Positions 50,522 through 56,497 of a stretch of DNA of 64,000 nt are shown piece by piece. The stretch covers positions 62,001-126,000 of the forward strand of contig NZ_QUZZ01000004.1 of assembly GCF_003545695.1 (NCBI RefSeq). The letters are read 5' to 3'. The number at the start of each line of letters is the position of its first letter. The first letter of the stretch is position 1. This DNA comes from Taibaiella helva. GTDB taxonomy: Bacteria; Bacteroidota; Bacteroidia; Chitinophagales; Chitinophagaceae. The notes under the pieces were generated by a model. That model was not told the DNA's origin and searched no databases. It worked only from the letters and a program-made list of their open reading frames with translations. The position numbers and the translations under genes were made by a program.

Positions 50522-50682
50522 GTGTCCTGTAATAACAGATTGCTGTCTTGCCTTTACCCTGAAACGAGTACCTGCAAATGTTTTCAGGTATTGAACGCTT
50601 GCAGGTAAGGATAAACAGGTATAAGCATGGCAAATGCTTTCCGAAGCAATAAAGCCATGCTTTATCTTGTTCGCAGCGATAT

Positions 50683-50756
50683 AAAAAAACCGCCCCGGCG
50701 AAGAAGTCCGGAGCGGTAGAGCTTTACTTACTAACCCATCGTAAGTAAGGCAAATT
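50683..50756 (-). ncRNA. candidate two-hairpin small RNA
   Basis: On the minus strand a first hairpin TTACTTAC / GTAAGTAA (50748-50724, 9-nt loop) is followed by a GC-rich hairpin (CCGCTCCGG / CCGGGGCGG, about 50715-50692) and a T7 run: an intrinsic terminator with no minus-strand gene upstream of it. A GAAATTTG word resembling the -7 box precedes the first hairpin. The element lies between the TonB receptor and the hsp20 promoter. It would make a transcript of about 65 nt. RNA data are needed to confirm it; a processed or antisense origin is possible. Confidence 0.5.
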
Positions 50757-50858
50757 TCAAAAAAAAGAACGGTAAAATGAAATGTTTTTTTTGTAATATC
50801 ACCCATTTCTGCTTAAAATTCAGCATTCATGCCTGATCTTCATTCTGAAAAAATCAAA

Positions 50859-50905
50859 AATGACATTTCGTCATTAAATCTCATTTGCAAATGACAATAA
50901 GTCAT
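50859..50905 (+). promoter_or_regulatory. paired ATGAC-N5-GTCAT sites, candidate enhancer
   Basis: ATGAC-N5-GTCAT occurs twice (centres near 50867 and 50898, 31 bp apart, about three helical turns). A perfect 12-bp palindrome CATTTGCAAATG (50882-50893) lies between them. They sit at about -76 and -45 relative to the predicted start of hsp20 transcription, where sigma-54 activators bind. Confidence 0.6.
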
Positions 50906-50915
50906 AAAATTTTCA

Positions 50916-50932
50916 CTGGTACAGGTTTTGCT
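50916..50932 (+). promoter_or_regulatory. sigma-54 promoter of hsp20
   Basis: CTGGTACAGGTTTTGCT matches the sigma-54 consensus YTGGCACGRNNNTTGCW at 15 of 17 positions, with GG at 50918-50919 and GC at 50930-50931, exactly the -24/-12 spacing. No TAnnTTTG box is present near the gene. Confidence 0.65.
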
Positions 50933-50989
50933 CTACAGCTTTCAAACAAAAGGTAATCCTTTAAAAATTTTAATTCAAACTTAAATCTA

Positions 50990-51445
50990 ATGAAAATGGT
51001 AAGAACAAATCATTTCCTGCCCCGTACATTCAATGGCCTGGTTGAAGATATCTTTAACGGTAATGCGGCCCGTTTTTTCCGCGATGATGCGGGACATGAT
51101 GAATGGGTACGCCATAGCTACCAGGTGCCTGTAAACGTAAAAGAAAACGAATCGGGCTATACCCTTGAAGTGGTTGCACCCGGCGTGGCCAAGGAAGACC
51201 TCAAGCTCCAGGTGAACGACAAAGTGCTGACCCTCTCTTTCGAGCTAAAAGAAGGCGAACAAAAAGAAGAAGGCAAATGGCTGCGCAGGGAGTTTAAGCA
51301 TCGCTCTTTCAAACGCAGCTTTACGCTCGGCGAACAGGTAGACACCGAAAAGATCACTGCTGCCTATAACAACGGTATCTTATTGCTGACCCTGCCGAAG
51401 AAAGAAGCCGTTATTGCAACCAACAAAGTGATCGATATCCAGTAA
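50990..51445 (+). CDS. Hsp20/alpha-crystallin small heat shock protein
   Basis: A 151-residue small heat shock protein that holds unfolding proteins during stress. The alpha-crystallin domain covers about residues 40-140: VPVNVKENESGYTLEVVAPGV, LKLQVNDKVLTLSFE, and the C-terminal beta strand region AAYNNGILLLTLPKKE. The N-terminal arm (MKMVRTNHFLPRTFNGLVEDIF) is typical of Bacteroidota members. The C-terminal tail is IDIQ rather than a clear IxI motif. Control appears to be by sigma-54 with upstream palindromes. It is monocistronic with its own terminator. Confidence 0.95.
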   Translation: MKMVRTNHFLPRTFNGLVEDIFNGNAARFFRDDAGHDEWVRHSYQVPVNVKENESGYTLEVVAPGVAKEDLKLQVNDKVLTLSFELKEGEQKEEGKWLRREFKHRSFKRSFTLGEQVDTEKITAAYNNGILLLTLPKKEAVIATNKVIDIQ

Positions 51446-55881: not shown

Positions 55882-56268
55882 TTATTGCTCAAACTTTATC
55901 TGCTGCAGCCAATAGTTTTTATCTCTCTGTTTGAAAAAAATATAGACCCTGTAAGGGCCATTTGCAGTTTTCAGTTCCCCGATTACGAATACGGAGTTAT
56001 CGCTGGCAGCAACACCTTTGTGCCTGACCAGGAAGGAGCGCGCCTGATTTTTGGAGAAAAAGCTTTTTACCACCATTTCTGCCTGCGACTTGCTGTACGT
56101 AGATTGGTCGCTGTTGATGGTAATATCTACAATCCGGTCAAAGTACTTGACAACATTAGATACCTCGCCCTTGTTCAATGAATTGGATACATCATCGATT
56201 TGAGGCTGTGCAAAAACACTACCAAATACAAATATTGCAGCAATAAATATAGCCAAATATTTTTTCAT
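55882..56268 (-). CDS. secreted DUF4783 family protein
   Basis: A 128-residue protein with a signal peptide (MKKYLAIFIAAIFVFGSVFAQ). The mature domain is the DUF4783 fold, an NTF2-like alpha/beta protein: DDVSNSLNKGEVSNVVKYFD, SQAEMVVKSFFSKNQARSF, and YIFFKQRDKNYWLQQIKFEQ. The family is restricted largely to Bacteroidota and has no known activity. It lies upstream of the DUF1015 gene by 71 bp on the same strand. Confidence 0.88.
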   Translation of the reverse strand: MKKYLAIFIAAIFVFGSVFAQPQIDDVSNSLNKGEVSNVVKYFDRIVDITINSDQSTYSKSQAEMVVKSFFSKNQARSFLVRHKGVAASDNSVFVIGELKTANGPYRVYIFFKQRDKNYWLQQIKFEQ

Positions 56269-56497
56269 GTTTCGCTAGGAATACTTACATACGGGGATTG
56301 GGGTCTAGGGTATACGTTTTAATAATTTTTATGATCAATAATTATGCCACAAATTCATTTTTTTGCACTTTTCTTTACAAATAGGAAACATTCCTTTACA
56401 ACGCTTACCCTGAGGCACGCAAAAATCATGAAAAATCGGATGGAAGCCAAACGTCGATATACAACAGGGAACATGTTTTATGCGACCGATCCTTTCC

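Follow-up and report, generated by a model that had tools for sequence, protein, structure and literature searches.

A putative sigma-54 promoter with paired activator sites before hsp20 of Taibaiella helva, and a candidate orphan activator of chaperone genes in the Chitinophagales

The small heat shock gene hsp20 of Taibaiella helva, which lies in the window analysed here (the whole stretch of 64,000 nucleotides from contig NZ_QUZZ01000004.1), is preceded by a -24/-12 element of the sigma-54 type and by two palindromes placed three helical turns apart, and a comparable layout is found before hsp20 and before other chaperone genes of related bacteria. Judging from sequence, the explanation that best covers these features, and which as a whole appears rather likely, is that hsp20 has a sigma-54 promoter served by paired activator sites, that these sites are bound by an orphan activator, and that the gene is part of a wider chaperone regulon. 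A preliminary description of this DNA had proposed sigma-54 control of hsp20 through phased activator sites, a proposal that is strongly supported by the conservation of the layout and by its recurrence at other chaperone genes. The interpretation put forward there can be regarded as partly supported: the type of mechanism seems correct and its reach wider than proposed, and the activator is probably a receiver-less orphan.

The features of the locus, together with the two regulators discussed below, are collected in Table 1. The reading frame of hsp20 may start either at its first ATG or at an alternative ATG at 50996 (149 aa), and its product shares 89% identity with the Taibaiella koreensis protein and 71% with its T. 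chishuiensis counterpart. The two palindromes and the -24/-12 element were confirmed on the sequence at the positions first proposed for them. The palindromes had been described as identical and 31 bp apart, which holds for their arms and for their centre-to-centre distance, but not for their 5-base spacers; the TGAC of the distal one begins 56 bp ahead of the TGG of the promoter, and that of the proximal one 25 bp ahead. The promoter agrees with the consensus (TGGCAC-N5-TTGC, with GG and GC 10 bp apart) at 11 of the 13 informative positions, and the match of 15 in 17 reported initially is obtained only if the four Ns are counted. Neither the TAnnTTTG box, which is the housekeeping box of the Bacteroidota type and had already been noted as missing near the gene, nor TTGACA, TATAAT, CTTGAA or GCACTC occurs on the plus strand of 50601-51000, so that, as far as CTTGAA and GCACTC can tell, a sigma-32-type box and a CIRCE element are absent from this same interval.

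Table 1. Location of the hsp20 gene, its upstream elements and two regulators of the same genome (plain numbers are positions in the window; G000 stands for the genome of T. helva)
Feature	Location	Strand	Remarks
hsp20 (small heat shock protein)	50990..51445	+	151 aa from first ATG; PF00011 HSP20, E 2e-23
Distal palindrome ATGAC-N5-GTCAT, ATGACATTTCGTCAT	50860..50874	.	centre about -76 from predicted start
Proximal palindrome ATGAC-N5-GTCAT, ATGACAATAAGTCAT	50891..50905	.	centre about -45 from predicted start
Putative sigma-54 -24/-12 promoter, CTGGTACAGGTTTTGCT	50916..50932	+	compared with consensus YTGGCACGNNNNTTGCW
Predicted transcription start of hsp20	50942..50944	+	inferred from the -12 GC alone
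Orphan activator	G000:C21, about 13.8-15.1 kb		434 aa; Sigma54_activat, lid, variable linker, HTH_8
NtrX-like regulator	G000:C27, around 282 kb (L006)		receiver and sigma-54 domain, no DNA-binding domain

Loose versions of these patterns show no excess in the window, where the palindrome with one mismatch allowed gives 3 matches, a number attained in 20 of 100 shuffles, and the sigma-54 pattern with two mismatches gives 70 matches against a mean of 82, so that the significance of the hsp20 elements rests on their pairing, spacing and conservation. In the genome of 4.82 Mb, the exact palindrome ATGAC-N5-GTCAT is present in 4 places, 2 of them at hsp20, while its reversed control is present in 2. 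The exact sigma-54 pattern has 12 sites in the same genome (control 2), among which only those of hsp20 and of a DUF937-like gene precede a gene and are not inside an open reading frame. The site of this DUF937-like gene (named by eye; 180 aa) is a well-matching TGGCACAGAATTTGCA without a palindrome (L021, G000:C1:83821). Another sigma-54-like site, TGGCATAATTATTGATCA, is located in the window at 56349 on the minus strand, 81 bp before an open reading frame for a secreted-looking protein of 128 aa (55882-56268), and inspection by eye revealed no TGAC palindrome near it.

A search for hsp20 proteins in 59 genomes, that of T. helva included, gave 96 matches in 54 of them, and the regions upstream of 70 of these matches were compared. 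These upstreams share their ancestry, and the counts that follow are therefore not independent trials. When all three-base dyads were scanned at spacings from 0 to 20, with no prior motif, the top-ranked dyad was TGG-N8-TTG, present in 49 of the 70 upstreams and missing in 21, against only 1 to 7 for the spacings 4-7 and 9-13 (3 in the case of TGG-N9-TTG). The second-ranked dyad was GAC-N5-GTC (21/70, with about 1 expected from other spacings), and lower in the list appeared GTC-N20-GAC (10/70), which corresponds to a pair of palindromes at a distance of 31 bp, and GCC-N5-GGC (8/70). The longer pattern TGGYAY-N5-TTG was found in 36 of the 70 upstreams, as compared to 0.2 in shuffled sequences (largest 2) and none on the other strand. 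Palindromes with at most two mismatches lie within 85 bp upstream of 33 of the 42 TGGNAY-N5-TTG sites, whereas shuffles give 4.4 (largest 9) and the controls for the same 42 sites give 3 downstream and 8 farther upstream. A column profile of 53 sites, whose invariant GG and TTG are due to the way in which the sites were selected, shows weak palindromes whose centres fall at -19 and -50 relative to the T of TGG, as well as A/T-rich columns that by eye recur at roughly helical intervals. In many relatives the -12 element of this profile reads TTGA and not TTGC, the C of the GC being most often replaced by A.

Within the genus, sites starting at -56 and -25 occur in T. helva and in all three congeners sampled, which keep 8 to 9 of the 10 arm positions at the distal site and 7 to 9 of 10 at the proximal one, the weakest being that of G001. 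The second hsp20 of T. helva (contig C33) has ATGACAG direct repeats and not palindromes, and no site was seen by eye upstream of the third (contig C9). A strict pattern that combined perfect arms with TGGYRC-N5-TTGC, run over 294 genomes of the family, retrieved only the genome of T. helva; it was too strict to be of use and is no sign of a private feature. The lack of excess of the loose patterns in the window alone would suit the idea that the whole match is due to chance or belongs to a housekeeping promoter of the Bacteroidota type, which is most improbable in view of the preference for a single spacing between TGG and TTG, the lack of a TAnnTTTG box on the plus strand of 50601-51000 and the layout kept in the three congeners.

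The layout is not confined to hsp20. A profile built from sequence only was trained on 51 of the 53 hsp20 promoter sites, all but L044 and L077, and run on 20 hand-chosen genomes of the order, with 150 candidates scored per genome. At a per-genome E<=0.1 it gave 73 rows, made up of 18 for hsp20, which are mostly training sequences, 2 second pieces of these, 9 reverse-strand reads of promoters already counted, one of them (G020:C42) being the other strand of an htpG promoter, and 44 other forward rows. Half of these forward rows (22 of 44) precede genes for chaperones or proteases, namely dnaK (7), clpB (4), htpG (4), groES (3), grpE (2) and lon (2), all of them identities borne out by Pfam or NCBIfam models; the remaining 22 consist of 12 inside genes, 5 elsewhere, 4 before clpC and 1 left unread. 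The layout extends to two genomes in which hsp20 had no match, being found before dnaK and grpE in G017 and before dnaK and groES in G308. The four clpC rows, together with a clpC row of T. helva itself (E 9), are probably an artefact, the motif coinciding with the opening codons of a small divergent gene, whose protein begins with a conserved sequence. Such clpC matches (L231, L239, L241, L227, L272) can mislead promoter scans. A sigma-54-like site with an ATGACA half-site was also observed before a small gene pair (L220, G010:C11:88080) in a genome without an hsp20 match.

In T. helva the same profile gave 13 rows at E<=10, led by the hsp20 of the window (3e-9) and the second hsp20 (5e-6), and followed by weaker rows for grpE (0.135), clpB (0.67) and a KGG-repeat stress protein (0.72); the others are the clpC artefact, the reverse strand of the window palindromes and six more. 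The site before grpE in this genome is TGTCA-N3-TGACA, with its arms in reverse order. The preliminary description had made its proposal depend on finding the sites again in related species or ahead of further stress genes, and the layout was indeed found in relatives before dnaK, grpE, groES, htpG, clpB and lon. Within the own genome the recurrence is partial: it is weakly seen before grpE and clpB, but the profile gave no match at E<=10 for dnaK, groES, htpG or lon.

In the mechanism that these features suggest, an RNA polymerase with sigma-54 (RpoN) would transcribe hsp20 from the -24/-12 element, while an activator with a Fis-type DNA-binding domain would dimerise on each of the two TGAC-N5-GTCA palindromes. 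An AAA+ ring would then assemble on the palindromes, and the promoter would be opened with ATP. With their spacing of 31 bp, or three turns, both sites would face the same side of the helix, an arrangement suited to the assembly of a hexamer ring. Classic sigma-54 enhancers are found at -80 to -150, and since the sites described here, at about -45 and -76, are nearer to the promoter, activation may have little or no need of a looping protein. This proximity could also be expected if the palindromes bound an ordinary repressor or some other regulator, the sigma-54 promoter being real and regulated through other sites, a possibility that appears distinctly unlikely because the palindromes show a preferred phase to the -24 element and a 31-bp pairing over the order, and because the profile detects similar sites before several chaperone genes. 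Under sigma-54 control through the paired sites, the same activator and sigma-54 would also drive dnaK, grpE-dnaJ, groES, htpG, clpB and lon across the order.

A further question is which protein would act as the activator. The genome of T. helva encodes one RpoN (PF04552, 185.6 bits), whose absence had been named at the outset as a finding that would speak against sigma-54 control, and five strong sigma-54 activators. Each of the 59 genomes has at least two such activators, and the 14 genomes with exactly two all have one orphan and one NtrX-like response regulator. The orphan shows Sigma54_activat first, HTH_8 last and no receiver (Pfam, in four of 15 copies, the own one included), and in the own copy Pfam detected neither a receiver nor any other sensory domain. 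PspF-type activators have an N-terminal AAA+ sigma-54 domain, a C-terminal Fis-type HTH and no receiver, an order of domains that the orphan shares. It differs from PspF in the long variable linker before its HTH, in its usual position after a miaB-like gene and not beside pspA, and in its predicted targets, which are cytosolic chaperones. A miaB-like open reading frame ahead of the orphan was recognized by eye at 11 of the 15 loci, the own one included (5 of 15 with a stricter motif marker), and a small open reading frame for a lipoprotein resembling lptE was seen behind it, also by eye, at 13 of 15. The loop that contacts sigma-54 reads GSFTSA in the own orphan, as in one of the 14 orphans of relatives, the other 13 having GAFTGA or GSFTGA.

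Response regulators of the NtrC/NtrX kind have the sigma-54 activator mechanism in common with the candidate, but the orphan has no receiver, and the NtrX-like protein of the window's family lacks an HTH. This lack was observed in the own copy and in all four of the readable genomes with two activators (L118, L119, L124, L125), whereas HTH_8 was detected in six of six NtrX-like proteins tested from other families of the order, the remaining three having been judged by eye. The orphan is consequently the only HTH-bearing activator in G022, a genome in one contig with the hsp20 promoter, and in G017, with the dnaK and grpE promoters; G032 agrees with this pattern, although the contig stops within its NtrX-like gene. 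The promoters having been kept in G022 and G017 with the orphan as the sole activator with an HTH, the palindromes would, by elimination, be bound by the orphan. The activator of hsp20 is then likely to be this receiver-less PspF-like orphan and not a response regulator, and the NtrC-type activator proposed at first is probably wrong. An HTH-less activator or an unrelated DNA-binding protein could nonetheless be involved. A second pointer to the orphan as the binder, which amounts to a hint, comes from G308, where the orphan gene has no miaB ahead and a perfect TGACAAAATGTCA lies 49 bp upstream of its start; a perfect palindrome was present before the orphan at only one of the 15 loci, and at one of the three readable ones without miaB ahead.

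Alternatively, sigma-54 may drive hsp20 through another activator of the same genome, either L005, L008, L009 or the HTH-less NtrX-like L006. The presence of five activators leaves room for this, and L009 in particular belongs to a cluster where further sigma-54-like sites precede stress genes; this reading is nonetheless unlikely, since G022 and G017 keep their chaperone promoters with no activators other than the orphan and an HTH-less NtrX-like protein, and only these two types are present in all 14 genomes with two activators. The cluster around L009 (L072, G000:C21:542000-554000) includes one sigma-54-like site before a KGG-repeat stress protein (PF10685), and is possibly a separate sigma-54 stress regulon. 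As with PspF, the orphan would be competent on its own, and another component, plausibly a chaperone or unfolded proteins, would restrain or release it. PspA acts in trans on PspF, and the lack of a sensory domain in the orphan suggests that its signal acts likewise in trans, perhaps via a chaperone. That this signal would be heat is suggested by the nature of the target genes.

Beyond the order, an HSP20 match was obtained in 140 of 148 genomes sampled over the phylum, the own one included, and 50 upstreams were compared among the matches listed, 30 of them belonging to best-scoring proteins. Among the matches listed, TGG-N8-TTG was found in 7 of 15 upstreams from the same class, where a spacing of 7 gave 4 and five other tested spacings gave 0 or 1, and in 16 of 35 from the rest of the phylum, with 3 to 5 at other spacings. 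GAC-N5-GTC, again among the matches listed, was present in 2 of the 15 and in 9 of the 35, while the N7 version gave 0 and 6. These counts indicate that a sigma-54-like promoter before hsp20 is widespread and that, among the matches listed, the palindrome stands out most in the Chitinophagales, the order to which T. helva belongs through the family Chitinophagaceae. In other classes, four hsp20 upstreams (L153, L154, L163, L149) show sigma-54-like sites with palindromes of opposite arms, of the TGTCA-N3-TGACG type, perhaps in relation to a different activator.

Previous work by Carrera-Reyna, Cruz-Flores and Merino (2025; PMC12316311) reported that predicted sigma-54 promoters are enriched in Bacteroidota before the genes for IbpA/Hsp20 (COG0071), GroEL, GroES, GrpE, DnaJ and DnaK, with Flavobacteriia first, followed by Bacteroidia and Cytophagia, and called grpE and groES sigma-54-dependent in named species. 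Sigma-54 control of these heat shock genes is therefore not new as a prediction, although the accessible portions of PMC12316311 give no enhancer sequence, geometry or cognate activator for the regulon, and 'hsp20' and 'Chitinophag' have no match in them. Among other bacteria, a sigma-54 promoter has likewise been reported for a small heat shock gene, ibpB of E. coli (Kuczynska-Wisnik 2001, according to PMC4316790), for which genome-wide mapping, according to the relevant part of PMC4591121, saw only background sigma-54 signal. As described in these excerpts, the promoter of ibpB lies inside a sigma-32 operon, whereas the signal described here is conserved over an order. The heat-shock passages of PMC7962754 and PMC4641369 contain nothing further on the subject. 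Neither the enhancer and its geometry nor the candidate activator was found in the literature searched, which included few subscription journals; the enhancer and the candidate activator are additions to a prediction that this literature was found to make only for whole gene families.

On balance, it seems slightly more likely than not that the receiver-less PspF-like activator, whose gene usually follows miaB, acts as master regulator of the heat shock response in the Chitinophagales, and perhaps in much of the Bacteroidota; it would bind pairs of TGAC-N5-GTCA sites spaced by 31 bp and turn on hsp20 and the chaperone and protease genes dnaK, grpE-dnaJ, groES, htpG, clpB and lon, a job performed elsewhere by sigma-32 or HrcA. 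To our knowledge, the sensing of heat and protein damage in Bacteroidota is poorly described. Sigma-32 acts through its controlled stability and HrcA through repression; a promoter that depends on an activator shows little leakage, and remodelling driven by ATP switches it. If true, a chaperone regulon run by sigma-54 would represent a design distinct from those of sigma-32 and HrcA. The finding is of good interest because heat-shock control in a large group of bacteria becomes directly testable, through one candidate gene, one DNA site and a list of predicted targets.
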